64,000 bases of DNA from Frankia casuarinae (GTDB lineage Bacteria; Actinomycetota; Actinomycetes; Frankiales; Frankiaceae): positions 1,116,001-1,180,000 of the forward strand of contig NC_007777.1 in assembly GCF_000013345.1 (NCBI RefSeq). Reading direction: 5' to 3'. Made by a program: the position numbers and the translations under genes. The notes beneath the pieces are model-generated. The model saw only the letters and a program-made list of their open reading frames with translations. It ran no database searches and was not told the DNA's origin. Of the stretch, positions 6,647 to 64,000 are shown piece by piece. Every line of letters begins with the position of its first letter. Positions within the stretch are counted from its first letter, which is position 1.

Positions 6647-7216
6647 ATGACGACGCACGACGACAGGATTCAACGCAAGATCGCGTTTCTGGTGGCGCCG
6701 GAGGGCGTCGAGCAGGTCGAACTCACCGAGCCGTGGAAGGCCATCGAGCAGGCCGGCCTGAGTCCGGTGCTGGTGTCGACGGAGGGAGGCAGGGTGCAGG
6801 CGTTCCGGCACCTGAACCCCGCGGACACCTTCCCGGTCGACATCACGGTCGCCGAGGCGGATCCCGCGGACTTCGACGCGCTGGTGCTGCCCGGCGGAGT
6901 CGCCAATCCGGACGAGCTGCGGTGGCAGCCGGGTGTTGTCGAGTTTGTCCGGTACTTCTTCGACGCCGGCCGCCCGGTGGCGTCGATCTGCCACGCTCCG
7001 TGGACCCTGATCGAGGCGGACGTGGTCCGCGGACGGCGGATCACGAGCTGGCCGAGCCTGCGCACCGATCTGCGCAACGCCGGGGCCGAGGTCGTGGACG
7101 AGCAGGTCGTCATCTGCCGGTCCGGGCCGAACACGCTGATCAGCAGCCGCAGGCCGGACGATCTGCCGGCCTTCGACAGCGCCCTGGTGGAGCATCTCAC
7201 CTCGGTGGGCGTCTGA
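6647..7216 (+). CDS. DJ-1/PfpI family protein (type 1 glutamine amidotransferase-like)
   Basis: About 189 residues. The family core is visible: KIAFLVAPEGVEQVEL at the N-terminus, the FDALVLPGGVANPDELR strand-turn, and the nucleophile elbow ASICHAPWTLIEADVVRG with its Cys and following His, then RRITSWPSLRTDLRNAGAE. This matches YhbO/PfpI-like proteins linked to protein or nucleotide deglycation and general stress. An AGGAGG at 6632-6637 lies about 9 bases before the ATG at 6647; the in-frame GTG at 6641 is too close to it. The leader contains a GGCAGGCAGGAGTCAG-type direct duplication (6594-6631). Confidence 0.9.
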   Translation: MTTHDDRIQRKIAFLVAPEGVEQVELTEPWKAIEQAGLSPVLVSTEGGRVQAFRHLNPADTFPVDITVAEADPADFDALVLPGGVANPDELRWQPGVVEFVRYFFDAGRPVASICHAPWTLIEADVVRGRRITSWPSLRTDLRNAGAEVVDEQVVICRSGPNTLISSRRPDDLPAFDSALVEHLTSVGV

Positions 7217-7646
7217 TCACCTCGGTGGACGCCCCAGCTCGGGATGCCGTTCACCGTGGATGCGAAGGAACCGCCGGAAACGGCTCCTTCGCCCGGGCTG
7301 CTCGCTACCTCGGATCAGGTGGGTCGCTACCCCGCACCAGGTGGATCATTGCGGGGTATCCCGTCGCCGGACATCCGTAACCTGGAACAGCGATGATGCG
7401 GCATTCCGGCCGCCGTGCCGGATGGCGCGGGCCGGCTCGCCGGGGTCGCCGTGGTCGTTCGTGGACACGCCGTCGTTGTCGTGGACATGTCATTACCAGG
7501 GTGGGGTCACCAGAGCCGGGTCACCGGGCGGGTCGGAAGATCTGCGGGGGAGGGGCTGTTACCCTTCCTGGCTCACCTGACGGCGTTGGCTCGCAGCCCG
7601 GGAAGCCGCAATCCAAGAATCCGACCGCGACCGGGAGGGAGAGCCG
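7217..7646. other. Non-coding stretch upstream of the helicase gene
   Basis: About 430 bases without a supported gene. Two near copies of a TCAGGTGG/CCAGGTGGATC-like motif around 7313-7350 are the only structure noticed. It presumably holds the helicase promoter; the last bases (GGGAGGGAGAGCCG) supply its ribosome-binding site. Confidence 0.4.
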
Positions 7647-47650: not shown

Positions 47651-48454
47651 TTACGCTGCATCGCTTTCGGGCAGGCTTGCAGCTCTGCCGAAGGCTTCCT
47701 TGATCTCGGCCTCCACCTCCCCGTGGATATCGGAAGCGTTGGTTTCGGTCTCGGGGTAGCAGCGGCGTCTGAAGTCCGCCCAGACCTCGAGATTGTCGGT
47801 CGTCACTTTGAAGGACATCCTGCTTTCGTCGCCGCCGACATCCTTGGCCCGCTGGCTCGAGATTGCGAGATTGTCGGTTTTATTGCCAATTGTAAACATT
47901 TGCACGATCCAGCCAGGGTCGTACTCGTGGAAGGTGCCGTAGATATCGACCTTCGAGTCCCCGATGAAACGGAGGCGCCAACGTCCACCAGGTCTGGGGT
48001 CCCAGAACATGATCCTGACCTGCGTCTCAGGCGGCGAAATCCATTGCACGTACAGCTCAGGATCCGTTCGGATACGGTGCAGCTGCCTTAGGGGGAACGG
48101 GAATTCTCGGACAACTACGAATTCTCCCGGGGCCGGGTTAGCTGTCCTTATGATCTCTCCGGTGATATCGTTGTTCTTGGATCTGAGGCGAGAGTTGTAA
48201 AATTCCTCGATCCACTGGGCCGCTGGGCCGAGCGCATCCTCTTCGAGACGTACCGGGCTGCGGTGGCCACCTCCAGGGCGGCGGATCAAGCCGGCTTCCT
48301 GAAGCACCTTGAGGTGCCTGGAGACCGCCTGGAGGCTTATCCCATACGGCTTGGCGAGCTCACCGACTGTGGCGTCATTTTCGACAAGTCGCTCGACCAT
48401 GTTACGACGGGTCGCGTCTGCAAGAGCCGCGAAAATTTTGGAATATTCAGTCAT
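47651..48454 (-). CDS. ArsR-family regulator fused to an SRPBCC (AHSA1-like) domain
   Basis: 267 residues. ArsR winged helix: IFAALADATRRNMVERLVEN, ATVGELAKPYGISLQAVSRH and LKVLQEAGLIRR; no metal-binding cysteine box. Then an AHSA1/SRPBCC ligand-binding domain: VVVREFPFPLRQLHRIRTDP, YVQWISPPETQVRIMFWDPR, GGRWRLRFIGDSKVDIYGTF and HEYDPGWIVQMF. In actinobacteria ArsR genes are often neighbours of AHSA1 genes; here both are in one chain, so the regulator may bind a hydrophobic ligand itself. It ends FGRAASLPESDAA, a tail kept in the shortened paralogue 3.2 kb away. The promoter leader is AT-rich. Start: ATG 48454, after a second ATG at 48466. Confidence 0.85.
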   Translation of the reverse strand: MTEYSKIFAALADATRRNMVERLVENDATVGELAKPYGISLQAVSRHLKVLQEAGLIRRPGGGHRSPVRLEEDALGPAAQWIEEFYNSRLRSKNNDITGEIIRTANPAPGEFVVVREFPFPLRQLHRIRTDPELYVQWISPPETQVRIMFWDPRPGGRWRLRFIGDSKVDIYGTFHEYDPGWIVQMFTIGNKTDNLAISSQRAKDVGGDESRMSFKVTTDNLEVWADFRRRCYPETETNASDIHGEVEAEIKEAFGRAASLPESDAA

Positions 48455-48540
48455 AATCGTACCCAATCAACAACATTATCAAAATTTCTCAATCAAGATC
48501 AATCGGGCGTCTCGGCCTGCGAATAATACATATTCAGATG

Positions 48541-48887: not shown

Positions 48888-49195
48888 TACGGGGGTAGGT
48901 AGAGGCAGAGCTGGTGTCCGGCGGCGAGCGTGTCGATCAGTTCGCGGGGTGTGGGGCATCGGGGCGGTGTGCCAGGACGGACCGGGTGCGGGCTGTCGCC
49001 GGCTGGGCTGGGTGCGGGCGGCTTGGCGGGGGTGTCGTGCCAGCACAGGCTGAACGCGCAGTTCACCAGGGTCCAGTGGCGGGCGATCGCGGTGGCGGAG
49101 CGGACCTGGAAGTCGGCCCAGCCCAGTTCGTGTTTGACCTGCTTGTAGTCCGGTTCGACCCAGCCGCGGGCGGCCCGCGGTGAGACGAGCCGCCC
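48888..49195 (-). pseudogene. IS701-like transposase, C-terminal fragment
   Basis: Reads RGWVEPDYKQVKHELGWADF then QVRSATAIARHWTLVNCAFS and LCWHDTP. (W-V-E-x-x-Y-K-Q-x-K-x-E-L-G-W-x-D-x-Q-V-R is the last catalytic region of IS701-type transposases.) After an apparently shortened linker it ends ELIDTLAAGHQLCLYLPP and TAG at 48888. The N-terminal two thirds are missing. It sits exactly at the joint between the two duplicated segments. Confidence 0.75.
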
Positions 49196-49263
49196 TACGA
49201 CGAGTCCTCGGCCCCCGCGCCGTTTACTCTTGGAGTTCGGCGGCTCTGCGCAGGAGTTGCTGG

Positions 49264-51094
49264 GGGGTGCGTCTTTTTGAGAGGTTGGTGATTCCGGGTC
49301 ATTCCGGTCGTGCAGGGTGGAGTCCGAGGTCGGGGATGCTGGCGGGGTCGTAGCGGGCGAGGTGGTGCTCGGTGAGGTAGCGCTGCTTGTAGTAGGTCAG
49401 GTAGGTGTTGAGGTCGCCGTTGATGACGACGGCGCGGAGCTTGAGGATGTCCTCGGCGCCGTCGGGGGACCAGCGGGCGCCGGTCAGGCCGAACCGGTCT
49501 TCGATGATGTGGCGGCAGGCGCCCTCGATGAGGCCGGTGGCGATCGGCCAGCCGTTGGCGAGGGCTTGGTCGTAGCGCATGTGCTGGTGGTTGTCGGTCA
49601 GGTAGGTCACGGCCCGGTCGACGTCGGCGAGGTCCTGGTCGCGGGTGCGCGGGTTGTTCCGCCGCTTCGCGGCGAGCGAGGCGAGGGTGGCGGCGACCGG
49701 CTTGGCGCGGCCGTGCAGGAGGCGCAGTAGTTGCCCGTCGCCCCAGTCGCTGACCTCGGTGGGGGTCTTCCCGCGGTTGAGCTGGACGGGCGGCCTTGCG
49801 GACGTATTCGGCGGCGTGGATGTAGTCGATGATGACCGGGACGGTCAGGCCGCGGGTGCGCGCGTGCTCGCCGATGGCGGTGATCTGCTGCCTGTTGCCG
49901 TCGACGAGGAAGATCCGCTGGTGCAGGTGCAGGGGGTCGCGCCAGTCGGCCTCGTCGAACGCCCGGCCGATCACGGCGGGGATGTCGTCGGTGATCGACG
50001 CGGAGACCCACGTGTCGCGCGCGGTGGGTCCGGGGCGTTCAGCGCGGCGGGCGGGTGGGGCGGCGATGTCCTCGGGTTGGCGGACGGCGGGAGTGAAGGT
50101 CGTGACGGCGACGATCTCGGCCATCTTCTTGATCCCGGGATGGGTGGCGTCGCTCCTGGCGGTGGTGCGGTGCTCGGGGCGCAGCGCGATGCCCTTGCCG
50201 TCGGCCTGCGTCATCAGCACGTCGCCGGCGGCGAGGTCGCCCGCGGTGGCGGCACGCAGGTCGTAGAAGTCGCTGACCCAGCGGGCCAGGTCGTGGGCGA
50301 GCTGGGCGAGTTGGGCGCGCCCGATGGTGACCCCGGTCCTCGCGGTGATGACCTGCTGGGCCTGCCCGTAGCCGCTGGTCCCGAGGTGGAAGGCCGCCAG
50401 GGCGCGGATCCCCAGCGAGTAGGCGTCGTCGGCGAGCGCCCAGCGGGCGTCGGCCGGGTAGAGGTTCGCCTCGCGCCGGTTGCGGTAGGCGAGCCGGGAC
50501 GCCCGGACCGGGCCGAAGACGCTGATCACGCCCCGGTCGTGGCTCTTCTCGACGCCGCCGTGGCGGATCCCGGCCGCGGACACCAGGTGGCTGACGCGCT
50601 GTTCGCGGGCGGCGTCGAGGGCGAACGTGGTCTCCAGCAGCGTGCGCAGCAGTTCGCGGCCGTCCGTCTCGAGCGTCTTCTCCCGGTCGCCGTGATCCAG
50701 GGCGGCGGCGCCGTCGACCGCCCAGCCGATCAGCGAGGAGCACCGCTCGATCGGACCCGCGAGCAGAGCGGCGGTCTCGGGGTCCAGCGGGACCCTGCCG
50801 CCGTCCTCACCGACGCGCTCCACCGTCACCGCAACCGCCACCGCAGGGCCTCCGTGACCTGTCTGGGACAAGGGCACCAACGTCGCCCATGATCCCGCGA
50901 ACTGGACGGCAGTCGACGATCCCGGCGACGAAGTCCCTCCCCGCCGGTGCTTCCCTCGGTCGGTCAACCAGCCGCTGACCAGCGACGATCACACCTGGTA
51001 GTGCCTGAAACATCCGTAAAGGTCCGGACTCGCCGATGGCAGGATGTCTTGACTCCAATCAGACACAAATGACGCTTTCAGAAAAGACGCACCC
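49264..51094. mobile_element. ISKra4-family-like insertion sequence with 8-bp target duplication
   Basis: Ends GGGTGCGTCTTTT at 49264-49276 and its inverted copy AAAAGACGCACCC at 51082-51094 (13-bp perfect terminal repeats). It is flanked by GTTGCTGG at 49256-49263 and 51095-51102. Length 1831 bp. The uninterrupted target, with a single GTTGCTGG, is preserved at 47516-47523 in the duplicated copy, which proves the ends. Confidence 0.92.
49299..50967 (-). pseudogene. ISKra4-family-like transposase with one frameshift
   Basis: First frame, from about 50967: RELLRTLLETTFALDAAREQ, ISVFGPVRASRLAYRNRREA, NLYPADARWALADDAYSLGI, MTQADGKGIALRPEH with the first catalytic Asp, IFLVDGNRQQITAIGEHART and VIIDYIHAAEYVRKAARP with the second. 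At about 49788 homology changes frame (VQLNRGKTPTEVSDWGDGQL) and ends LANGWPIATGLIEGACRHII EDRFGLTGARW-type sequence with the last Glu, stopping at 49299. A single-base or two-base lesion thus splits the gene unless frameshifting is programmed; other ISKra4 genes are one frame. Start codon uncertain. Confidence 0.85.
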
Positions 51095-51234: not shown

Positions 51235-51672
51235 CTATAGGGCTTTTTCGGGCAGGCTTGCAGCTCTGCCGAAGACGGTCTCCAGCGCGGTCTCCAGCGC
51301 GGTCTCCAGCGCGGTCAGCGCCTCCTTTTCCCGGACAGCTATTAATTTCTCCGGGTTAGCTACCCCTGTGAGATTTCCGGCGATATCGTCGTCCTTGAAT
51401 CTGAGGCGAGAGCTGTAAAATTCCTGGATCCATCGGGCCGCTGGGCCGAGCGCATCCTCTTCGAGACGCACCGGGCTGCGGTGGCAACCTCCAGGACGGC
51501 GGATCAAGCCGGCTTCCTGAAGCACCTTGAGGTGCCTGGAGACCGCCTGGAGACTTATCTCATACGGCTCGGCAAGCTCACCTACTGTGGCGTCATTTTT
51601 GACAAGTCGCTCGACCATGTTGCGACGGGTCGCGTCTGCAAGGGCCGCGAAAATTCTAGAAAATTCATCCAT
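51235..51672 (-). CDS. ArsR-family regulator, paralogue that has lost its SRPBCC domain
   Basis: 145 residues. The first ~105 residues are nearly identical to the 48.4-kb regulator (IFAALADATRRNMVERLVKN, LQAVSRHLKVLQEAGLIRR, RSPVRLEEDALGPAARWIQE). After AVREKEALTALETALETALE the ligand-binding domain is gone and the chain goes straight to the common tail TVFGRAASLPE. Three 12-bp repeats (ALET) mark the deletion junction. The HTH is intact, so it could still bind the same operators without responding to the ligand. Confidence 0.8.
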   Translation of the reverse strand: MDEFSRIFAALADATRRNMVERLVKNDATVGELAEPYEISLQAVSRHLKVLQEAGLIRRPGGCHRSPVRLEEDALGPAARWIQEFYSSRLRFKDDDIAGNLTGVANPEKLIAVREKEALTALETALETALETVFGRAASLPEKAL

Positions 51673-52099: not shown

Positions 52100-54409
52100 T
52101 CACCTCACCTCATTTTCGGGGTCAGCGCCCACGGGCTTTGATGCCTCGATGGCCTCGATGACCCGCGGGCGCAATTCGGCGGGGGGGATGACGGCGTCGA
52201 CGGAGCCGACCTCGACCGCGCGTTGGATAGTGTGCCGGCGGTCGAACTCCGTGGCTATCTCGCGATGCTTCTCCGCGTGGACCGAGACGCGGAGCTCGTC
52301 GAGCTCCGCGGTTAGCGCGGTGTGGTCGGCGCCGGTGGCAGCCGCGACGCGGGCCTCCAGGCCGCGCACCCGCGGGTCGGCCGCGGTGCGGGCGTCGACT
52401 TCGCGGGCGAATACCACCGCGGCGGCGGGAGCGCCGCCGAGAACCGAGGCGAACGAGCCCTCCAGCGCCAGCACGGTCATGTTCGGGTTCAGCGCCTTCG
52501 AGAACACCACGAACGCGCCACCGTGGTACCGCGAGATCACGCAGAATACAATGGGCCCGCGGAAGTTCACGATCGCGCGGCCGATCTCGGCGCCGTACTC
52601 CAGCTGCAGCTTGCGCATCGACTCCGGCGAGCCGTCGAAGCCCGACAGGTTCGCCAGCACCACCAGCGGCCGGTTCCCGCTTGCCGCGTTGATCGCCCGT
52701 GCGACCTTCTTCGAGGACTGCGGGAACAGCGTGCCCGGAGTATAGATTTCCGGGCCGTCGGTGGGCGGGAAACCGTGCCGCGGCACAGCGCGCGACTCGA
52801 TGCCGATCAGGCATACCGGTATGCCGCCGAGGTGTACGTCCCACACCACCGCGGTCTCCGCGCTCTCCATGTGCTTCCAGCGTTCCAGCACCGGGTGGTC
52901 CTGGTCGGACAGCGCCTCCATCACAGGGCGGATGCCGAAGGGCTTCTTGCGGTCCGGGTTGGCCTCGGCGGAGAAGATCTCACCGACGGAGGTGAAGTCG
53001 CTGCCAGCCACCGAGTGAGGGTAGTCGGAGATGTCGCGGTCGACGGGGTCGTTCGTCTCCGCTCGCCGCGGACCATCCTCGCCGGGGGCGACATATGTGT
53101 GATTGTAGTATGCCATCAGCATGTCCACGGCGGCGGTCAGGTTCGGCGCCCAATACTGCCCCTGCCCGTTCGGGCCCATCACTCGGTCGTAGCCGCCAAT
53201 GCCGAAGTTGTCCTCGGCCGACACGCCGCCGGAGACATCCACTGCCTGCTTGCCGGTGAGCACCATCGTCGAGTCCGGGATCATCACCAGGATGCCCTTG
53301 GTGTGCATGAGCATCGTCGCCTCGGCGTTCCAGTACGGCTGCGCACCGACGGTGATGCCCGTGACCACGATGTTGATCTCGCCGCCGGCCTGGGTGAACT
53401 CGACGATCTGCTTGAGTGCCGCGCCCACCCAGTCCATGTTTTCCGTGCCCGATTCCATGGAGATCCGGGCACCGGAGGACAGCGCGTACCATTCCAGCGG
53501 CAACCGCCTCCGCTCGGCCAGGTTCAGTGCGGCGATCACGCGGCGGCACTCCGGCTCTGACAGTGCGCCGAGCGACTTCGTCGGGTCGCTGAGCAGTACG
53601 ACCCTGGTGACACCCTGCGGGTGCAGCCTGGTCGGGGTGGTGGCCACACCCACGACGATCGCCGCGGTGTTGTGCCCCTTCGGCCGGTCGACCGGCACCA
53701 GCGCGCAGTTGTCGTCGAGGTCGTACTCGACGAAGTCGCCGAGCAGGTCGGTCAGTTCATACGGGTGCATCATCTTGCGGTTGCTCGCGCGTAGCACCTT
53801 GAGCCGGTAATCGTCGATCGGCTCGACCGGCTCGACCGAAGGCTCGCCAACGGTCAGCTCGGCGCCCGTGGTCTTGAAGGAGACACACACGGCGATCTCA
53901 GACAGCTCGCCGGTCTGCGGGCTGCGCTGCTGGGCGATGAACAGGATCTCCTCCAGCTCGGCGTCCGCGGTCATCAGCAGCACACGCTCAGCGATCATCT
54001 CCAGCTCGGTGCGGGTGATGTCGCTCGGCGGCCAGACGTAGACCACGATCCGGTTGGTGTTGAAACGCTTGTCCGACGGTCGCCGCGACCGAGCGCGGCG
54101 GATCGAGTCGACGCAGGCGGCCACGGCGTCCTCGGCCGCTGGCAACGCGACCAGCTGGCCATCATGATCGTGCTCCCTAAACAGGTCGCGTACCTGGATG
54201 AACGCGACAAAGCGGTTATCCGACGGATTCTCCCGCGCCACGCACTGGTAGAGGTAGACATCCTCGTCTGACGACGGCAACCGGGTGAGGTCGAATTTGC
54301 TCAGCCGTTCCAGCTGCATCCGCTGCGCGATGCACGGGTGCAGGCCGCGGATCAGCCGTTCCTCGGCCATCCCGGCGTCCGACGGCCGGAACGTGAAGTG
54401 GTGGGTCAT
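52100..54409 (-). CDS. Acyl-CoA carboxylase, carboxyltransferase subunit of eukaryotic multidomain type
   Basis: 769 residues. The N-terminal ~250 residues (FDLTRLPSSDEDVYLYQCVA, RFVAFIQVRDLFREHDHDGQ, KRFNTNRIVVYVWPPSDITR) match the end of the central (AC) region of eukaryotic acetyl-CoA carboxylases, not bacterial AccD. Then the two crotonase-like CT halves: PLEWYALSSGARISMESGTE, INIVVTGITVGAQPYWNAEA, TGKQAVDVSGGVSAEDNFGI with DYPHS, and NRPLVVLANLSGFDGSPESM, then FRGPIVFCVISRYHGGAFVV and FASVLGGAPAAAVVFAREVD. It transfers carboxyl from biotin to acyl-CoA. Start overlaps the previous stop (ATGA), so the two subunits are made together. The acyl substrate is unknown. Confidence 0.9.
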   Translation of the reverse strand: MTHHFTFRPSDAGMAEERLIRGLHPCIAQRMQLERLSKFDLTRLPSSDEDVYLYQCVARENPSDNRFVAFIQVRDLFREHDHDGQLVALPAAEDAVAACVDSIRRARSRRPSDKRFNTNRIVVYVWPPSDITRTELEMIAERVLLMTADAELEEILFIAQQRSPQTGELSEIAVCVSFKTTGAELTVGEPSVEPVEPIDDYRLKVLRASNRKMMHPYELTDLLGDFVEYDLDDNCALVPVDRPKGHNTAAIVVGVATTPTRLHPQGVTRVVLLSDPTKSLGALSEPECRRVIAALNLAERRRLPLEWYALSSGARISMESGTENMDWVGAALKQIVEFTQAGGEINIVVTGITVGAQPYWNAEATMLMHTKGILVMIPDSTMVLTGKQAVDVSGGVSAEDNFGIGGYDRVMGPNGQGQYWAPNLTAAVDMLMAYYNHTYVAPGEDGPRRAETNDPVDRDISDYPHSVAGSDFTSVGEIFSAEANPDRKKPFGIRPVMEALSDQDHPVLERWKHMESAETAVVWDVHLGGIPVCLIGIESRAVPRHGFPPTDGPEIYTPGTLFPQSSKKVARAINAASGNRPLVVLANLSGFDGSPESMRKLQLEYGAEIGRAIVNFRGPIVFCVISRYHGGAFVVFSKALNPNMTVLALEGSFASVLGGAPAAAVVFAREVDARTAADPRVRGLEARVAAATGADHTALTAELDELRVSVHAEKHREIATEFDRRHTIQRAVEVGSVDAVIPPAELRPRVIEAIEASKPVGADPENEVR

Positions 54410-57400
54410 CGTGCGGCTGCCTCCGGGGTGATGGTGATGGTGAGCCGACGCACCTGGGGCGGCAGCGGGTGCGCGCTGGCGGCCTCGCCCAGCGCGGCCG
54501 CCATCACGTCGGAGTCCGCCGGCTGGTTCTCCCAGGACAGGTAGATGTCAGCATCGACGGAGCGCTCGCCGCCTGCCAGCTCCGCAAGCCCACCCAGCGC
54601 CGCGTCCAGCGCGTCGAAGCCAACTGCGCAGGAGACGAGCCTGGAGCCCGCGCGCTCGGCCACCCAGAACCGGTAGCCGGCGTACTCGGTGGCGCGGATG
54701 TGGGTGAGGTCCTTGTTGCCGTAGTACCGGCGGGTCAGCACTTCCAGTATGACCGTGTTATCCCGGTCGCCGCGCAGCAGCCGCTGGCCCAGCAGCGGCA
54801 CCAGCGGCTCGGTGCTGCGCACCATCTCGGCGATGCGCTCGGTGCGATCCGGCGCGTCCGGGTAGGCGTCCAGGTGGAGCAGGTGCTCGAAGATACGGAT
54901 GCGCTCCTGGGCACGGCGCAGCAACTGCTGATGCTGGAACCAGGCGAACATCACGTCGAGCGCGAGGTCGGCAACCACGGGGAAGTGGCCCTTCGTGGCG
55001 GCCACCAGCCGCTCCAGCGCCAGACGCACCGGTTTGTGCACGGACTTGTCCGGCGGCGGCTCCCACCGCCACGATTCCAGCAGCGCCGCAACTACCTTGG
55101 CGGCCACCTTGGCGGTGGCGGGCTGCCGGGCGAGGAAGATCCGGAACACCGCGGCCTCGAGCTCGGGGGAGCGTTTCAGGTCGGTGACGTCGTAATGCCC
55201 GAGCGCCTTGGCCAGTTTGGCCTGGAACGCCTCCGGTAGCCCGGCCCGCTCGACGTCGAGGCTGCGCAGGTAGGTGTGGAAGTGCTCGTGAGGGTTGCGC
55301 AGGTGGCCCTCATCGCCGACGTCCATGCGGGCAGGCCGGTTCCGGCTCAGCTCGGCCAGGTCGGCGAATATTTCGATGATCTCTAGCTCCTTGGCCAGCG
55401 GCTGGTGGCCCTCCTCGGTGGCCGCCCGACGCGCGGCGAGGTAGTCGTGGAGCACCTGGCGCTCATCGTGCAGGTCGAAGCCCAGCAGCAAAGCGCGCAG
55501 ATCCTCCAGGCCGCGCGCGGTGCGCTCACGCGCCGGGACCTCCTCGGGCGCGGTCGGCAGGTCCAGCCCGGCCGCCGCGGCGGCCGGGCTGTCCTCGACC
55601 TCGGCGCCGGCGATCGGCTCCAGCCGCAGCAGCGGCGCACCCGCCTCTACCTGGCTGCCCACGGAGACGAAGTATTCCCTCACCCGCGCCTTGAACGGCG
55701 CCTGCAGCACCGTCTCCATTTTCATGCTCTCCAGCACCAGGATTTGTGCGCCCGCCTCGATCTCGGCGCCAACCTCCAGCGGCGTGGCGATAACCATGGC
55801 AGGCATGGGCGAGCGGACGACGTCGCCCTCGTCGCGGCTGACCCGGTGGGTGACGCCGTCCACCTCGATCAGGTGGACGGGCCCGTGGATGTCGGCGAGT
55901 AGCCGGTACCGGGCACCGTTGACGACGATCTGCCCGGTGTGCCGATCGAAGCGGTCAATCTTGACGTCAGCGGTGCGGACCTCGGCGCCCGCTTCGAGGC
56001 TGACGTGGAACCGGCACGGGCCCCGCCGCGCCACGCGCGCCCGGTAGCCGACGTCGCGCAACTTGAGGTCCAGCGGCCGAGCGCTGTCGTGCTGCACCTG
56101 CGGGCGTCCGCCGAACGCCGTCAACAGCAGCCGCTGCCGCTCGACGTGCTCCTTCTCCTCGTACGCGTCGATGGCCGCTGCCACCAGGGCCACGGCGGAG
56201 TGCCGGTGCGAGACAAGCCCGTCCCCGACGCGGTCGATCCAGCCGGTGTCCGCGCTGGCGTCGATCAGCTCGGGCCGGTTGAGCAGGTCCAGCAGGAAGC
56301 TCTTGTTCGTGACACCACCCTTGATGATCACTTTGGTCTCCTGAATCGCCCGGCGCAGCCGGCCCAGCGCCCCGTCGCGATCGCGGCCGTAGGCGATGAT
56401 CTTCACGATCATCGAGTCGAAGTCGGCCGGGATGGTGTCGCCCTCGCTGAAGCCAGTGTCGACGCGGATGCCGGGTCCGGCTGGCAGCTCCAGCCGCGTG
56501 ATGTGGCCCGGGCACGGCATGAAGTCGCGGTCGGGGTCCTCCGCGTTGAGCCGGGCCTCGACGGCGTGTCCGCGCTCGACCGGCCGCACGCCCTGCAGCC
56601 GGCCGGCCGAGGCCACGTGTAGTTGGGCCTTGACCAGGTCGAACCCGGTTGTGGCCTCGGTGATCGGGTGCTCGACCTGCAGGCGGGTGTTGACCTCGAG
56701 AAACGTGACCTGCTTGTCGCCGGGATGGTAGAGGAACTCGACGGTCGCCGCGCCCCGGTAGCCGACCGCGACGATCAGCCGCTCGGCCGCGGCCTTGAGG
56801 TTGGCCGCCTGCTCCGGGCTGAGCACCGGCGAGGCCGACTCCTCGATTACCTTCTGGTTGCGCCGCTGCACCGAGCAGTCACGGACGCCGAGCGCCCACG
56901 CGGTGCCCTGGCCGTCGGCAATCACCTGGACCTCGACGTGCCGGGCCCCAGTAATTAGGCGCTCCAGGAACATGACATCGATGCCGAACGCCCGCGCGGC
57001 CTCTTGCCTGGTGCGCTCGAAGGCGTTGACAAGCTCGGACTCGTCCCTGATCACACGGATGCCCCGACCGCCGCCGCCCGCGGCCGCCTTGAGCATAAGC
57101 GGATAACCGATCTTGGCAGCCGCTGCCAGGGCGGCGTCCAGGCTCTCGACCGGACCGCGGCTCCACGGCGCGACCGGCACGCCGACCTCCTCGGCGATCC
57201 GCTTCGCGCCGATCTTGTCGCCGAGCTTACGCATGGCCTCGGAACTAGGCCCGATGAAGGTGACCCCGAGCCTCTCGCAAAGCTCTTCGAACGCCGGGTC
57301 CTCCGCGACGAAGCCCCAGCCGACCCACGCGGCGTCGGCCCCAGTCTCCACCAGCGCGCGCTCTAGGACCCTCAGATCGAGATAGGGACGCGCGGCGGCC

Positions 57401-57576
57401 GGGCCAAGACAGTAGGCCCTGTCGGCCTCGCGCACGAACGTCGCGGTGCGGTCGACGTCGGTGTACAGGGCGACGGTCTCGATCGCTGTCGCGGTCTCGG
57501 CGACTATCTCCCGAACGGCTCGGATGAGGCGCATCGCGGCCTCACCACGGTTGACGATGGCGACGCAGCGGAACAC
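54406..57576 (-). CDS. Biotin carboxylase-BCCP subunit with central domain (split eukaryotic-type ACC)
   Basis: 1056 residues. Biotin carboxylase: CVAIVNRGEAAMRLIRAVRE, KIGYPLMLKAAAGGGGRGIR (glycine-rich ATP loop), HVEVQVIADGQGTAWALGVR, CSVQRRNQKVIEESASPV and FLEVNTRLQVEHPITEATTG. BCCP: IVVNGARYRLLADIHG, PMPAMVIATPLEVGAEIEAG and ILVLESMKMETVLQAPFKA with biotinylated Lys619. The last ~380 residues (LRALLLGFDLHDERQVLHDY, RDNTVILEVLTRRYYGNKDL) correspond to the AC central region found only in multidomain carboxylases. GTG 57576 is preferred: AGGAAGG lies 8 bases upstream. Follows the KAS III gene by 145 bases. Confidence 0.9.
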   Translation of the reverse strand: MFRCVAIVNRGEAAMRLIRAVREIVAETATAIETVALYTDVDRTATFVREADRAYCLGPAAARPYLDLRVLERALVETGADAAWVGWGFVAEDPAFEELCERLGVTFIGPSSEAMRKLGDKIGAKRIAEEVGVPVAPWSRGPVESLDAALAAAAKIGYPLMLKAAAGGGGRGIRVIRDESELVNAFERTRQEAARAFGIDVMFLERLITGARHVEVQVIADGQGTAWALGVRDCSVQRRNQKVIEESASPVLSPEQAANLKAAAERLIVAVGYRGAATVEFLYHPGDKQVTFLEVNTRLQVEHPITEATTGFDLVKAQLHVASAGRLQGVRPVERGHAVEARLNAEDPDRDFMPCPGHITRLELPAGPGIRVDTGFSEGDTIPADFDSMIVKIIAYGRDRDGALGRLRRAIQETKVIIKGGVTNKSFLLDLLNRPELIDASADTGWIDRVGDGLVSHRHSAVALVAAAIDAYEEKEHVERQRLLLTAFGGRPQVQHDSARPLDLKLRDVGYRARVARRGPCRFHVSLEAGAEVRTADVKIDRFDRHTGQIVVNGARYRLLADIHGPVHLIEVDGVTHRVSRDEGDVVRSPMPAMVIATPLEVGAEIEAGAQILVLESMKMETVLQAPFKARVREYFVSVGSQVEAGAPLLRLEPIAGAEVEDSPAAAAAGLDLPTAPEEVPARERTARGLEDLRALLLGFDLHDERQVLHDYLAARRAATEEGHQPLAKELEIIEIFADLAELSRNRPARMDVGDEGHLRNPHEHFHTYLRSLDVERAGLPEAFQAKLAKALGHYDVTDLKRSPELEAAVFRIFLARQPATAKVAAKVVAALLESWRWEPPPDKSVHKPVRLALERLVAATKGHFPVVADLALDVMFAWFQHQQLLRRAQERIRIFEHLLHLDAYPDAPDRTERIAEMVRSTEPLVPLLGQRLLRGDRDNTVILEVLTRRYYGNKDLTHIRATEYAGYRFWVAERAGSRLVSCAVGFDALDAALGGLAELAGGERSVDADIYLSWENQPADSDVMAAALGEAASAHPLPPQVRRLTITITPEAAAR

Positions 57577-57721: not shown

Positions 57722-58705
57722 CTACGCCCAGCGCAAGGCGACTCCACCCCACGTCGCGCCGCCGCCGAAAGCCACGATAAGGAGCAGGGAGTCCCGCTGG
57801 AGCCGACTGGCCCGTACAGCGTCATCCAGTGTGATCGGCACGGAAGCGGCACCGGTGTTGCCGTACTTGCCGACGGTGAGATGCAACATTCCCGAGGCGA
57901 GCCCCAGGTTCTCAGCCAGGTCGGCCAGCATCACGCCGTTCGCCTGATGAGACACGATGAGATCAACGTCGGGCAGCGTTATACCCACAGTCGTGCACAG
58001 TTCCGTCACGACTGCTGCCAACTTCTCGGTTGCCAGGCGACGAACCTCCCGGCCGTTCATCATGAAGTAGTGCTGATGTTTCTCGATGCTGAGATGGCTC
58101 GGAGGTATTCGACTGCCTCCGCCTGGGATCTGGATCAAGTCCTTGTTGCGCCCGTCCGAGTACAGGGTGCTCGCCAACAGGCCTTGTCCGTCAGGTACCT
58201 TGCCGAGGACGACCGCGCCAGCACCGTCTCCGAAAAGAGTCGAGGTGCGGTAGTCGGTGTAGTCAAGAATGCGCGAATAGGTGTCGGCGCCAATAACCAA
58301 GGCGGTGGAGTAATCCGGGTCCGCGGCAAGTAGGGAGTCGGCGCACTTCAGCGCGTAGATGAAGCCGGTGCAGACCGCTTGAATATCGAAGGCGAACGCT
58401 CGAGTGGCGCCGATGGATGCTTGAACGTGGCATGCGGTGGCGGGCATGGGCTGGTCGGGTGTGGATGTGGCAAGCACGATCAGATCGATGTCCCGGGCCT
58501 GCATGCCTGCCGCGGCGAGCGCCTGTCGTGCGGCGTGGGCAGCCAGATCCGAGGTGGCCTCGTGCGGTGCTGCCACACGGCGTTCGCGGATGCCGGTCTT
58601 CTCGAAGATCTTGCCACGGTCGAGACCGAGGCGATCTTCCATTTCTTCACTCGTCAAAATTTTTTCTGGGACGTATGACCCGGTTCCCAGAATGGCTGTG
58701 TTCAC
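57722..58705 (-). CDS. Beta-ketoacyl-ACP synthase III family (KAS III/FabH-like)
   Basis: 327 residues. Active-site Cys112 in FDIQAVCTGFIYAL, His253 in DLIVSHQANGVML and Asn283 in VGKYGNTGAASVPITLDD form the full Cys-His-Asn triad. GDGAGAVVLGKVPDGQGLLA and the C-terminal LLIVAFGGGATWGGVALRW are family hallmarks. In a PKS operon such proteins start chains, transfer acyl groups or join two beta-ketoacyl chains (pyrone-forming relatives). It is 24 bases behind the PKS; AAAGGA precedes the GTG start. Confidence 0.92.
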   Translation of the reverse strand: MNTAILGTGSYVPEKILTSEEMEDRLGLDRGKIFEKTGIRERRVAAPHEATSDLAAHAARQALAAAGMQARDIDLIVLATSTPDQPMPATACHVQASIGATRAFAFDIQAVCTGFIYALKCADSLLAADPDYSTALVIGADTYSRILDYTDYRTSTLFGDGAGAVVLGKVPDGQGLLASTLYSDGRNKDLIQIPGGGSRIPPSHLSIEKHQHYFMMNGREVRRLATEKLAAVVTELCTTVGITLPDVDLIVSHQANGVMLADLAENLGLASGMLHLTVGKYGNTGAASVPITLDDAVRASRLQRDSLLLIVAFGGGATWGGVALRWA

Positions 58706-58729: not shown

Positions 58730-61700
58730 TTACAGCAGTTCGGCGATATACTCACTGAATTCTGCGATTGTGGGATGCTCCCGGATTGCGGCGAGCGAGA
58801 TGGAGACCTTGAATATTTGCTGGATTCGTCCGCGGAATTCCACGGCGCGTAGGGAGTTCAGACCGAGTTCCGAAAAGGCGGCACTAGGGCTCAGTCGACG
58901 CGCTCGCAAGCTGAGGATCTCACGCAAGATTTCAATGATCATCTTTCTGATGATCTTGAGGCGTTCATCTCTGGTAGCCTGTGAAATCTCGGCGCTGATG
59001 TCGGCGTCCGTCCCAGTGTCCGGACGTTGCTCGGTCGGCTCTGTATGCGCTGACCGGGCCGAGTCGGTCGGGGGCGCCAGGTTCCTGAGTAGCTTGATCA
59101 GATAGGTGCGTCTGTCCCACGTCGTAGGCGGCACGTCCGCGATGGCTCCATCGCCGTGCCACCGCCGCCAATTCATGTCGAGCCCGGCGCAATGAAGCGC
59201 TGCGATGCTCGTTCGTAGGGCTGTGGCCTGATCGTGCCTGTTATCGGTAGTCGGTACAACCGTGGCCTCCGGCGCCCCGGCCGCCTGGAGGGTCAGAATA
59301 AGCGGGTGGATTGCCACCGGATGTGGAGAGATCTCCTGGAAAAGCTGGTGTCCGTCGTTGACGATGGCGGTCGTGGCATCCACCGCCCGAACCGGGCAGC
59401 GCATGTTCTCACCCCAGTAGGCAGCATCGAATGTGGGTGTCTGCCGCGGATCAGGCAGAACCGTGGTATAGAAACGGATCGTCGGCTGCCTAGGCCGTAT
59501 ATCGCTGAGCTCAGCGGTCAACGCGTCGGCGACTGGATGGATCAGGGGACAGTGCGAGGCGACATCGACATTGATCATATGCGCGGGAACGTCGCGGGAT
59601 GTCCAGCTTTCGACCAGGCGTTCGACTTCGACTCGAGTACCGCCGATCACGGTGGACCGGGGTGCGGCGAAGAACGCGACAGCCACGTCGGGAAGATGGT
59701 CGATCTCTGCCTGGACCGTGGCCGCATCCAGTTCGACGACCGCCATCGCCGCAACGCGGGCTTCGGCGATGGGAACGCACAGCCGAGACCGACGGCAGAT
59801 GACGCGGATGCCGTCTTCCACGGTCAACGCCTCCGCGATCACGGCGGCGGCGATTTCACCCATGGAGTGTCCTACTACGGCGGCGGGGTGGATGCCGTGG
59901 GATTGCAGGGTGCGCGCCAGAGCGACCTGTACCACGAAAATCAAGGGCTGTACCTGGTCGATTCGGGTCACCTCGTCACCGGCCCGCAGCACCTCCTCCG
60001 GCGAGAAACCCGACTCGGCGCGAATCAGGGGGTCGAGCGCCGCGATCGTGTCGGCAAACACGGGTTCGGTGGCGAACAGGTCTCGCCCCATACCGGGCCA
60101 CTGCGAGCCGTGGCCGCTGAACACCCACACCGGTCCCGTTGCGTGCTCGGCGTGGACATAATCGTTGACCATGCCTTCAGGACGGGGGTGTGTCCCGTCG
60201 GCATATGCGCGTAGGCGGTTGACGAGATCGTCCCGGGAGCGAGCGACGACCGCCAGTCTCTCGGGGCCGTGCGAGCGGCGTACCGCGAGCGTGTGCGCGA
60301 TATCTTTCAAGGGTGTCGTCGCGCCGGAGCGGATGAGCCAGTCGGCGAGCCTGATCGCGGAATGCTGCAGCGCAGTTTCTGATCCTTCCGACAGCAGGAA
60401 CGTGAGAACGGAATCGTCGCTGCTGCTGGACGACCTCGGCGCGACCGGGGAGCTGGAATCCGGCGGTTCCTCCACGATGGCATGCGCGTTGGTCCCGCCC
60501 ACACCGTAGGAGGACACGGCCGCGAGGCGCGGACCACCGGTGACTGGCCATGGTGTCGTTACGGTCGGAACGAACAACCTGGTGCCGGACGGGTTGATAG
60601 CGGGGTTCCACCGTCGGAAATGCAGGGACGCCGGGACCTCACCGTGGTACACCGCCAATATGGCTTTGAGTAGCCCCACCATGCCCGCGGCGGGTTCGGC
60701 GTGGCCGAAGTTCGTCTTAGCCGAACCCAATGCACACCGGCCTCGTCCCCGTCCGTAGACGGCGGCCAGCGAACGGAACTCGATCGGGTCGCCAACGATG
60801 GTTCCGGTGCCGTGCGCTTCGATCATTCCAATTTCTTCCGGGTCGACATCGGCAATACTCAGGGCGGTACGGAACACCTCTTCCTGAGCTTGCTCGGAAG
60901 GAACGGTGAACGGGGACGTCTTCCCGTCATGATTGACCGCCACCCCCCGTAGCACGGCGAGCACGCGGTCCTGGTCACGCATCGCGTCGTCGAGACGTTT
61001 AAGTACGAGGACCACGCAGCCCTCGGCCCGAACGTAGCCGTCCGCTCGTTCGTCAAAGCTGAAGCATCGCCCGGTGGGAGATAGCACTCCCAACTCGTTA
61101 TAGGCCAGGAACGTTCGGGGGCTGAGTAGCAGGTTGACCGCGCCAGTGATCGCGAGGTCACACTCGTCCTGCCGAAGGCTGTTACATGCCAGGTACACGG
61201 TGGCCAACCCTGTCGAACACGACGTGTCCACGGTCATGCTGGGACCGCGCAAACCGAAGACGTGCGATATCCGACCGGATGCCGGTCCGGCCTGGTTACC
61301 GGGCACAAAGTAGGGGCCCCCGCCGCTCGGGAGCTGATGTGCGTGGAGCATATGGTCCAAGTTGGACATGCCGACGAACACAGCAGTGCTGCTCCCTACC
61401 AGGTCATCGGTTGGCAATCCAGCGTGCTCGAACCCCTCCTGCACGACCTCCAGCAACAGCCGATGTTGAGGATCGATCAACTCTGCCTCGGTCGGGTCGA
61501 TACCGAAGGCCTCTGGATCGAAGGCGCCGACGTCCTCCGACAAAAACCCGCCACGCCACAGCACGTTCCGATCGGTCTCTGCCTGCGATGCTTCCCGCGA
61601 CGCCTCACTCCATCGCTCTGATGGCACATCGGTGACCGCATCACGACCGTCGCGGAGGAAATCCCACAGCGACGCCGCGGAACCAACGCCGCCAGGAAGG

Positions 61701-61960
61701 CGGCACCCGATCCCAATCACCGCAACCGCGCTGGAGGTGTTTCCCCCAGCATCCCGCGTCCGTTCACCCGAACCCTTACTCGGATCCGCGCGGATGGTCT
61801 GATCCGCCTTCTTGACCGGAGCGTCGTTGGCGGAGTCGTCGGTTGTAGTGACCGTGATGTCACTGTTGGTCAGCTGTTCGACCAGGACGGGCCGGATCGG
61901 GTCCGCAAGATCCGGGGAGACCCGGGGCAGTCGATCGTCGCTCTTCCTCTGCTTCGACAC
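58730..61960 (-). CDS. Single-module type I polyketide synthase: KS-AT-ACP
   Basis: 1076 residues. KS: VAVIGIGCRLPGGVG, active Cys248 in VDTSCSTGLA, His383 in EAHGTGT and His420 in KTNFGHAEPAAG. AT: VFSGHGSQWPGMGRDLF, nucleophile Ser699 in GHSMGEIAAAV, and NVDVASHCPLI (residues near 803), the selectivity box most like methylmalonyl- or alkylmalonyl-type ATs of mycobacterial PKSs. ACP: FSELGLNSLRAVEFRG, with the phosphopantetheine Ser1036 preceded by Asn where Asp is usual. No KR, DH, ER or TE. The first 75 residues are unstructured and unlike known docking domains. GTG 61960 has a GAGGAG 8 bases upstream and is preferred to the longer TTG reading at 62011. Confidence 0.92.
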   Translation of the reverse strand: MSKQRKSDDRLPRVSPDLADPIRPVLVEQLTNSDITVTTTDDSANDAPVKKADQTIRADPSKGSGERTRDAGGNTSSAVAVIGIGCRLPGGVGSAASLWDFLRDGRDAVTDVPSERWSEASREASQAETDRNVLWRGGFLSEDVGAFDPEAFGIDPTEAELIDPQHRLLLEVVQEGFEHAGLPTDDLVGSSTAVFVGMSNLDHMLHAHQLPSGGGPYFVPGNQAGPASGRISHVFGLRGPSMTVDTSCSTGLATVYLACNSLRQDECDLAITGAVNLLLSPRTFLAYNELGVLSPTGRCFSFDERADGYVRAEGCVVLVLKRLDDAMRDQDRVLAVLRGVAVNHDGKTSPFTVPSEQAQEEVFRTALSIADVDPEEIGMIEAHGTGTIVGDPIEFRSLAAVYGRGRGRCALGSAKTNFGHAEPAAGMVGLLKAILAVYHGEVPASLHFRRWNPAINPSGTRLFVPTVTTPWPVTGGPRLAAVSSYGVGGTNAHAIVEEPPDSSSPVAPRSSSSSDDSVLTFLLSEGSETALQHSAIRLADWLIRSGATTPLKDIAHTLAVRRSHGPERLAVVARSRDDLVNRLRAYADGTHPRPEGMVNDYVHAEHATGPVWVFSGHGSQWPGMGRDLFATEPVFADTIAALDPLIRAESGFSPEEVLRAGDEVTRIDQVQPLIFVVQVALARTLQSHGIHPAAVVGHSMGEIAAAVIAEALTVEDGIRVICRRSRLCVPIAEARVAAMAVVELDAATVQAEIDHLPDVAVAFFAAPRSTVIGGTRVEVERLVESWTSRDVPAHMINVDVASHCPLIHPVADALTAELSDIRPRQPTIRFYTTVLPDPRQTPTFDAAYWGENMRCPVRAVDATTAIVNDGHQLFQEISPHPVAIHPLILTLQAAGAPEATVVPTTDNRHDQATALRTSIAALHCAGLDMNWRRWHGDGAIADVPPTTWDRRTYLIKLLRNLAPPTDSARSAHTEPTEQRPDTGTDADISAEISQATRDERLKIIRKMIIEILREILSLRARRLSPSAAFSELGLNSLRAVEFRGRIQQIFKVSISLAAIREHPTIAEFSEYIAELL

Positions 61961-62025
61961 GAGGACGCTCCTCAGCGACTCGGTTGAGATGATGAAGGAA
62001 GAGTACCCCAATCCGGTCGCTTATC

Positions 62026-62210: not shown

Positions 62211-64000
62211 CTACCCGTGAGGTTGTACGCCTCCAGACTCTCCATGAGGAGGCGGGGGTGAGGTGGAGGCGCTCCGCTCGCGCTCGCCAACATGTCGCTG
62301 CGGCTCACACGTACGTTCCTGGGGGCTCCTGCTGCTGTCCTTAACCCACGCGACGATCTGGGCCCGTGAGGTGAAACCGAGCTTGCCGAGAATGCGCTCG
62401 ACGTGACCTTCCGCCGTGCGCTGGGCGATCACCAGGTAGCTCGCGATCTCCTTGTTGCTCAGACCGCGGGCGACGAGGTCCGCCACCTGACGCTCCCGAG
62501 GGGTCAGGGGCACCTCCGGCTCGCCGGCGGGAACGACGGGGTGGGCGACGGGAGTCCCGGTGCCCTGGGTAGCCGCGGCGACGGCCTCGTCCAGGTCGAG
62601 TTCCGCGCCCTGCGCTAGGGCGCGTTCGAGCTTCCGTTGATCCAGGACGCGTCGCAGGGACGCCTCGCATCGGTGGTGGAACGAGGCGAGCCCGAAGACG
62701 GCGATCGACGCCCCGGTCTCACGCCAGATCCGCCCGGCCGCGCCGAGCAGGACCGCGGACTCGTGGTGCCGACCGGCCGAGGCCATGACCCACGCCTGCT
62801 GCTCCAGCGCGACGGCGATGCCGACATGGTCGTGGAACGCGTATTTGAGGGAGATGGCCGCGGCATGGTGCTCCATCGCCTGCTCCAACTCGCCTAGCTG
62901 CCAGGCCGCCAGACCGAGGCCGCACAGAGCGAACGAGCGGAAGCAGCATTCGCCGAAGCGCTCGGTCAACGCCACGCATTCCGCGAAGACGGTCGCCGCC
63001 GCGTCCTGTTCCTCGCGGATTCCGTGGGCCAGCCCGAGATAGAGCAGTGATTGGGCGAGACCGAGCGGCTCGTCGAGGTCAGTGAACCGGCGGCGGGCGT
63101 CCTGACTGCGCTCCACCGCCGCCGACGTGTCCCCGCTGATGGCGGCGAGCCTGCCCTCGACGCAGGCGATGCGTGCGAGCACCCGCTGCTCGTGCAGCCT
63201 GGCGGCCAGATCGCGAGCCTCGGCCAGCAGCGACGCCGCCGCGGTGATGTCGCCCTGGAGGGACGCGGCGTGGGCGGCCGATTGCAGACCGATGGCCCGG
63301 ATCCCGTCCGGCTCCGTGGCCTTGCTCAGCCCCCGATCAAACCAGAAGCGCGCCTCGCTGAGTAGCCCGATGGCGGCCCAGTATTGCCACAAGGCCACCA
63401 TGATGGACAGAGCGGTCTCCGCCAGGCCCGGTGTGGTGAGGCAGAGGTCCAGCGCAACCCGTAGGTTCGCTTGCTCGTTCCGGATCCGCCGGATCCAGTC
63501 CAGTTGGGCCGGGCTGCACCACTGAGCGTCGGCGAGGGCCGCCATCCGGCGGTAGTAGGCGAGATGCCGACGGCGCACGTCCTGTTCCCGACCGGACTCG
63601 CGCAGGCGGTCCTGGCCGTACTGGTGAATGGTGTCCAGCATCCGGAACCGGACCATCCCCTCGTCGTCGTCACGGACCAGAATCGACTTGTCAACCAGCC
63701 CGCTCAGCACGTCCAGCACGACTGCCGGCGGGTACCTGGCGCCCTCCACCTGCTCAGCCGCCTCCAAGGTGAACCCGTCGGCGAACACCGACAGGCACGC
63801 CCACATCTGCTGCTCCTCGGGATTGCACAGGCCGAAGCTCCAGTCGATCAGCGCGCGCAGGGTCTGCTGGCGGCGGGGTCCGGCCCTGTTGCCTCGCGTC
63901 AACAGGGCGTAGCGGTTGTCGAGCCGATCGAGGATCTGCTCCAGGGACAGCGTCCGGAGCCGAGCAGCCGCCAGTTCGATCGCCAGCGGGATGCCATCCA
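62211..64000 (-). CDS. Large ATPase/TPR regulator with LuxR-type HTH (5' end outside window)
   Basis: The frame is open to the window end, where it reads GIPLAIELAAARLRTLSLEQ, the GxPLAIxLAAxRL motif of AfsR/LAL-like STAND ATPases; the Walker motifs lie beyond 64000. Then RQQTLRALIDWSFGLCNPEE, VFADGFTLEAAEQV and RFRMLDTIHQYGQDRLRESG, a TPR-like helical region, and a C-terminal LuxR HTH: VPLTPRERQVADLVARGLSN KEIASYLVIAQRTAEGHVER. Such regulators switch on adjacent biosynthetic operons after ATP or effector binding. It lies on the same strand just upstream of the PKS, with about 250 bases between. Confidence 0.9.
   Translation of the reverse strand, partial: DGIPLAIELAAARLRTLSLEQILDRLDNRYALLTRGNRAGPRRQQTLRALIDWSFGLCNPEEQQMWACLSVFADGFTLEAAEQVEGARYPPAVVLDVLSGLVDKSILVRDDDEGMVRFRMLDTIHQYGQDRLRESGREQDVRRRHLAYYRRMAALADAQWCSPAQLDWIRRIRNEQANLRVALDLCLTTPGLAETALSIMVALWQYWAAIGLLSEARFWFDRGLSKATEPDGIRAIGLQSAAHAASLQGDITAAASLLAEARDLAARLHEQRVLARIACVEGRLAAISGDTSAAVERSQDARRRFTDLDEPLGLAQSLLYLGLAHGIREEQDAAATVFAECVALTERFGECCFRSFALCGLGLAAWQLGELEQAMEHHAAAISLKYAFHDHVGIAVALEQQAWVMASAGRHHESAVLLGAAGRIWRETGASIAVFGLASFHHRCEASLRRVLDQRKLERALAQGAELDLDEAVAAATQGTGTPVAHPVVPAGEPEVPLTPRERQVADLVARGLSNKEIASYLVIAQRTAEGHVERILGKLGFTSRAQIVAWVKDSSRSPQERTCEPQRHVGERERSASTSPPPPHGESGGVQPHG

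Follow-up and report, generated by a model that had tools for sequence, protein, structure and literature searches.

A pair of adjacent genes on the minus strand was analyzed in a 64,000-nucleotide stretch of the Frankia casuarinae genome, hereafter the window (contig NC_007777.1, positions 1,116,001 to 1,180,000). Together the two genes encode the domains of a multidomain acetyl-CoA carboxylase (ACC), divided between an alpha and a beta protein. Both open reading frames (ORFs) were confirmed and, as a preliminary description of this stretch had stated, they overlap by 4 bases (ATGA) at 54406-54409. The features are listed in Table 1.

The longest alpha ORF begins at TTG 57597 and encodes 1063 amino acids (protein P0002). 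GTG 57576, the end coordinate given in the preliminary description, is most likely the start of the gene, because AGGAAGGA lies 7 bases upstream and the predicted protein then agrees with the N-terminus of the family. The Pfam domains Biotin_carb_N, CPSase_L_D2, Biotin_carb_C and Biotin_lipoyl (residues 593-659) were found in P0002. The beta protein (P0001) contains ACC_central (residues 3-82, E 1.1e-11) and Carboxyl_trans (residues 265-757), and its top match in the PDB was yeast ACC (E 3.9e-25). All the catalytic motifs checked are present in the split copy. The biotin carboxylase (BC) motif near window position ~56860 reads QRRNQK, with the Asn found in 77 of 78 aligned family sequences; E. 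coli-type enzymes have His at this position (QRRHQK).

Table 1. Features of the split carboxylase locus and its neighbors, in window positions. The reference for the fold model is the homologous stretch of the nearest relative (locus L030, see text).
Feature	Position	Strand	Details and basis
ACC alpha gene, BC-BT-BCCP-AC1..AC4	54406..57576	-	1056 aa from GTG 57576, the most likely start; ORF search, Pfam, family N-terminus
ACC beta gene, AC5-CT	52100..54409	-	769 aa, ATG start; ORF search, Pfam, PDB match
ATGA stop/start overlap, fission point	54406..54409	-	Sequence, comparison with relatives
GGAGG, Shine-Dalgarno-like	54420..54424	-	10 bases before the beta ATG
Biotin carboxylase domain	56233..57570	-	P0002 residues 10-455, Pfam; motifs QRRNQKVIEE and EVNTRLQVEH present
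Biotin carrier domain with MKM	55621..55821	-	P0002 residues 593-659, Pfam
AC1-AC4 (CDN-CDL-CDC1) region, limits approximate	54409..55533	-	Fold model of the homologous L030 stretch
AC5 (CDC2) domain, limits approximate	53801..54409	-	Pfam, profile, fold model of the L030 stretch
Carboxyltransferase domain	52139..53617	-	P0001 residues 265-757, Pfam
KASIII (FabH-like), next gene upstream, same strand	57722..58705	-	Above the fabH cut-off
Type I polyketide synthase, KS-AT-ACP	58730..62011	-	1093 aa
LuxR-type regulator with ATPase domain	62211..63998	-	Runs past the window end
ArsR-type regulator, downstream of the beta gene	51235..51672	-	

Ordinary actinobacterial acyl-CoA carboxylases have an alpha subunit of ~600 amino acids and a beta subunit of ~520 amino acids and lack the ACC central region. 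The pair in the window resembles the ordinary AccA/AccB enzymes with epsilon in having two catalytic genes, one with BC and the biotin carrier domain (BCCP) and one with the carboxyltransferase (CT). It does not belong with them, since its proteins of 1056 and 769 amino acids carry AC1-AC4 and AC5, and its two-gene layout is secondary.

The extra residues, ~380 in alpha and ~250 in beta, had been proposed to be the central region of eukaryotic ACC. This assignment held, by different routes for the two proteins. AC5 was recognized at the sequence level, through Pfam and through a profile built from 22 relatives. For P0002, ACC_central was absent from the Pfam listing even at E values up to 1, and the profile gave only weak local matches in the ~400-residue alpha tail, although the whole profile matched human ACC1 with an E value of 8e-15. 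A fold comparison was therefore used for AC1-AC4. The structure modeled was not that of the split copy but the homologous stretch of its nearest relative, the gene of Candidatus Frankia californiensis Dd1 (L030, NZ_CAAAFO010000143.1), whose product is 84.7% identical overall to the window enzyme. The model, built from the 22 relatives, had a mean predicted local distance difference test score (pLDDT) of 80.7 and a predicted template modeling score of 0.70. It aligned with chain residues 796-1572 of yeast ACC (5csk_B; Z 30.7, 559 residues) and with human ACC1 (8xkz; Z 30.9), and Foldseek concurred (5csl_B, E 1.6e-23). Entries below the ACCs in the VIA-align output, such as PP2A B56 and beta-catenin (Z 6.7 and less), were treated as common arrangements, and a single-sequence model of P0002 was discarded for its mean pLDDT of 37. 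Both extra regions are thus assigned to the ACC central region, the alpha part on the model of its homologue, and the names AC1-AC5 on the bacterial protein are taken from the fold alignment. The likeness to yeast (5csk/5csl) and human (8xkz) ACC lies in the fold and order of AC1-AC5, and for AC5 in sequence too; the eukaryotic enzymes differ in being single chains with a longer central region. In yeast ACC this region is described as carrying a phospho-regulatory loop (PMC5126230).

An enzyme of this class has already been published. SACE_4237 of Saccharopolyspora erythraea is described as an actinobacterial multidomain acyl-CoA carboxylase with BC, BCCP, the ACC central region and CT, active as a homodimer on acetyl-CoA and propionyl-CoA; it is a single polypeptide of ~200 kDa, its CT is placed with eukaryotic ACCs, and it is essential, for fatty acid synthesis (PMC6491548). 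The window copy shares with this type a CT side close to actinobacterial multidomain ACCs and a central region homologous to that of eukaryotic ACC. The one sequence aligned from its genus was that of S. rosea (L093, 75.9% identity), SACE_4237 itself being likened by description. In contrast to the one chain of SACE_4237, the window has two frames with an ATGA overlap, in a polyketide synthase (PKS) cluster. What is new is the natural two-gene form in a polyketide cluster; searches of an open-licence literature library turned up no description of a eukaryote-type ACC in split form.

How far the split extends was examined in relatives. At least 585 of the 595 stretches listed in a scan of a genome collection encode a relative, and in all 80 fetched as the best of these the alpha and beta halves lie in a single frame. 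Beta identity to these best 80 was 77-87%, and it was 50-87% in the 75 other genomes of a class-level sample. One locus, L061, was considered as a second fission and rejected, because an assembly gap, marked by a run of N, has removed most of its alpha part. The enzyme was matched in 76 of 393 genomes in the class sample (window genome included) and in 30 of 396 in a phylum sample, 10 of which are shared with those 76. The preliminary description had called the architecture eukaryotic; its domain assignment stands, but with such numbers and one characterized enzyme this architecture is not exotic in actinobacteria.

Among the 96 distinct genomes with the enzyme in the two samples taken together, the window genome was the only one seen interrupted at the junction. 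Of the other 95, 87 were taken as fused because the frame open around the match spans 1822 residues or more, and the remaining eight, with open frames below 1800 residues, were inspected individually. None of the eight shows an interruption at the AC4/AC5 point, two of them (G484, with the alpha side outside the stretch, and G380, with no alpha part) being unable to show one. Four (G101, G053, G362 and G728) have a single frame over the junction in a stretch that starts at or near a contig end, and G728 has an additional 352-residue CT piece on a separate contig. G559 has a 1418-residue frame without BC that crosses the junction. In G484 the beta side alone is seen, close to the start of a contig; its frame is open upstream by its length, and the stretch has no alpha match. 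G380 has a biotinyl-CT protein only. The eighth, G197 (L142), was rejected as a second fission, as its frameshift lies at beta residue 62, away from the junction.

Two forms with fewer domains were also seen. L145:2819-4720 (-) encodes a 633-amino-acid protein in which a biotinyl domain is joined directly to a CT of the present family, with 46% identity to that of the window, with no BC or central region; a gene for a type I fatty acid synthase (FAS)-like ketosynthase adjoins it (L145:5037-8903, -). L153:2443-6696 (+) encodes a multidomain ACC whose 1418-amino-acid frame includes biotinyl, ACC_central and CT domains but no BC, downstream of a 692-amino-acid KR-DH ORF of PKS/FAS type (L153:3-2078, +).

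The Dd1 gene is fused in one frame. Its 9.6-kb contig has the end of a PKS gene, KASIII and ACC in the same order as the window, and gene order is common to both as far as the contig reaches. The ACC genes are 90% identical in DNA, KASIII is 80-84% identical and the PKS end 59%. In a quick maximum-likelihood tree of whole proteins (82 rows), rooted on three further genes that have alpha and beta in a single frame, the window copy was sister to the fused Dd1 copy with a Shimodaira-Hasegawa-like approximate likelihood ratio of 100, and the pair was nested within one-frame genes. Because the split copy sits among fused genes with a fused sister, the direction of change read from the tree is fission of a fused gene.

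The tree thus overturns the suggestion that the split form is ancestor-like. That an unfused state was retained here, with the fused enzyme derived from it, is hardly credible: the two-gene layout does resemble the ordinary actinobacterial alpha and beta subunits, but conserved linker residues have been lost in the window copy, and many independent fusions at an identical residue would be needed. The other suggestion, fission of a horizontally acquired enzyme, is upheld for the fission by the tree and by the one-frame relatives. Its horizontal part is plausible. A long match was found in one of 13 genomes of the genus, the other 12 having weak CT matches only, and in three of 35 genomes of the family; the branching around the Frankia pair among other actinobacteria was not resolved in the tree. 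The pair may plausibly have gained the block by horizontal transfer, the alternative being that it was retained while others lost it.

The junction itself was compared with 77 aligned relatives, in which the linker reads LTxTVAGxxGAV-M-HHHFTF. The window copy has LTITITPEAAAR and a stop, followed by MTHHFTF in the new frame. Fourteen linker columns are conserved in 95% or more of these relatives; the window copy keeps eight of them and differs in six (V, A, G, G, V and the first H). The linker has become one base shorter in net length. GTG-ATG occurs at the site in 55 of the 77 relatives, where a frame change would meet TGATG at once, so the site is easy to split. GGAGG was found in the corresponding stretch of one of 96 compared loci, and seven window ORFs gave a frequency of 1.8% of positions with the motif at such a distance. 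In the Dd1 model, the junction is residue 406, in a loop (pLDDT below 50 at 402-404) that joins the last AC4 strand (391-399) to the first AC5 strand (408-415). The AC4-AC5 connection of yeast ACC is described as a hinge that is stabilized by phosphorylation of Ser1157 (PMC4833862, PMC5126230).

Since the net difference is one base and the junction was read from one strain, an error in the reference sequence, with one base lost in a GC-rich stretch, was considered. This is very unlikely. The junction stretch has 13 differences from Dd1 in 30 columns (mean 3.1; only the C-terminal tail is worse) in a gene that is ~90% identical, and the six other gaps over 5.5 kb, the C-terminal tail apart, are all multiples of three. 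These differences, the six changed conserved columns and a GGAGG that one miscalled base does not explain argue against a lone miscall. Another possible explanation is that a single chain is still made by a -1 ribosomal shift into beta. The beta frame is indeed at -1 to the alpha stop, as this would require, but inspection by eye revealed no slippery heptamer near the stop, and ATGA with GGAGG suits termination-reinitiation better; we regard such a shift as at least as improbable as the sequencing error.

The reading that we prefer, with a probability of roughly 0.68 for the whole of it, is that a multidomain ACC was split by fission at the AC4/AC5 hinge and continues as a two-part enzyme. At the sequence level, the shortened linker and its many further changes gave rise to the ATGA overlap and to GGAGG. 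Alpha and beta would then most likely be translated in a coupled manner and assemble into a non-covalent alpha2beta2 complex, with BC, BCCP and AC1-AC4 contributed by alpha and AC5 and a dimeric CT by beta. Judging from gene content, the complex would make malonyl-CoA, and perhaps methylmalonyl-CoA too, for the adjoining polyketide cluster, and ethylmalonyl-CoA would come from the cluster's crotonyl-CoA carboxylase/reductase and 3-hydroxybutyryl-CoA dehydrogenase.

Substitutions were counted on the two branches to see how the copy has evolved. On the window branch, alpha had 113 nonsynonymous and 74 synonymous changes and beta had 74 and 62, respectively, compared with 54 and 43 (alpha) and 39 and 24 (beta) on the Dd1 branch; the branch ratios were 0.56 and 0.42 for the window and 0.46 and 0.57 for Dd1. 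Changes at conserved columns numbered 52 against 63.9 expected in alpha (p 0.03) and 39 against 54.6 in beta (p 0.003) for the window, and 29 against 34.3 (p 0.14) and 18 against 25.9 (p 0.02) for Dd1. No stop was found among 342 substitutions, junction columns included, where a neutral simulation with the observed spectrum expects 6.1 (p 0.0015). Pairwise ratios of nonsynonymous to synonymous rates (dN/dS) were 0.50 and 0.43 between the window and Dd1, 0.34 and 0.44 between Dd1 and L031, and 0.03-0.23 in two other pairs; the adjoining KASIII gene gave 0.42. By these counts, the gene is under weak constraint and fast evolving. Since dN/dS is similar in the fused Dd1 gene and in KASIII, the relaxation seems to go with the block in Frankia and not just with the split.

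Several points weigh against a working two-part enzyme. The nonsynonymous deficit is slight (neutral simulation, p 0.0245 joint, 0.24 for alpha, 0.02 for beta), and all the branch tests span the whole of the change since divergence from Dd1, not only that after the split. Of the 78 aligned sequences, the window copy departs most from the family, with 93 departures at conserved columns against a median of 6, the fused Dd1 copy being second with 59; private changes at conserved columns numbered 74 and 40, respectively (p 0.0019). Five other CT loci are present in the genome, so the split enzyme need not be essential. The spacing of 10 bases from GGAGG to ATG is longer than is usual for a Shine-Dalgarno sequence, and the alpha2beta2 carboxylase is a prediction from the genes alone.

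The main rival is early decay: a frameshift in a linker that tolerates change would have disrupted a redundant enzyme, leaving the two open frames as remnants with no stops so far. We consider this unlikely, though a good deal less so than the other alternatives. It would account for the fast evolution, for a GC-to-AT bias on the window branch (129 versus 23 changes in alpha, 96 versus 18 in beta), for an alpha nonsynonymous count compatible with neutral change, for the presence of the other CT loci and for the rarity of long matches in the genus. The lack of stops in either frame, the in-frame gaps elsewhere, the sparing of conserved columns and the GGAGG ahead of the new start all speak against it, as do the similar branch ratios of the fused sister. 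If the gene is decaying, the finding reduces to a small pseudogene story.

If the split enzyme works, a natural chain cut at one of the central-region hinges tests the need for a covalent link. In eukaryote-type ACC, the central region is described as remote from the active sites, with a proposed role in positioning BC and CT (PMC5126230). The split form would also be a two-part enzyme, open to dismantling and recombination, and an enzyme described as essential in S. erythraea (PMC6491548) here sits in a biosynthetic cluster. A bolder proposal is that selection has retained the hinge fission as a functional alpha2beta2 enzyme serving the cluster specifically, with a loose joint that permits regulation by assembly or subunit exchange with other carboxylases; this is tentative, and we think it will probably not hold.

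Beyond the LuxR-type regulator (locus L110) lie genes for a tryptophan-halogenase-like flavoprotein, a crotonyl-CoA carboxylase/reductase (TIGR01751, above cut-off) and a tandem 3-hydroxybutyryl-CoA dehydrogenase. From its gene content, the neighborhood would be a polyketide cluster that provides its own extender units. Among loci L030-L141, whose flanks ranged from 1.5 to 9 kb and were in some cases truncated by a contig end, a KASIII match beside ACC was found in Dd1 only. In 35 genomes of the family, the KASIII gene had an 84% match in G308, and the next best other genome gave 55%.

We take the window genome to be that of F. casuarinae CcI3, which agrees with an interpolation of locus tags: tag 0991 falls at ~1176 kb when placed between 0764 (the sigma 54 modulation/HPF gene, at 889.3 kb) and 1057 (ribosomal protein S1, at 1259 kb). 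The PKS gene, at 1174.7-1178.0 kb, is the only acyltransferase match within 90 kb. In the Frankia CcI3 transcriptome, Francci3_0991 ("acyl transferase region") is reported to rank in the top 100 transcripts by abundance under two of the three conditions, with 1015 and 691 reads per kilobase per million mapped reads (PMC3188489). If the genome is indeed CcI3, the PKS gene of this row is thus probably well transcribed, a result that concerns the PKS and not co-transcription of the ACC genes.

Two further arrangements were seen in the surroundings. The halogenase-like flavoprotein gene (L110:4571-7123, +) overlaps by 4 bases a 324-amino-acid ORF (7120-8094, +) that is ATP-grasp-like by eye and has no Pfam match; this pair probably belongs to the polyketide cluster. 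On the other side, two similar ArsR-type regulators lie on the minus strand at 47651-48466 and 51235-51672, the longer with an AHSA1 domain. The 590-amino-acid ORF between them (49195-50967) has no Pfam match and is transposase-like by eye only, and the arrangement suggests an inserted element with a duplication on either side.

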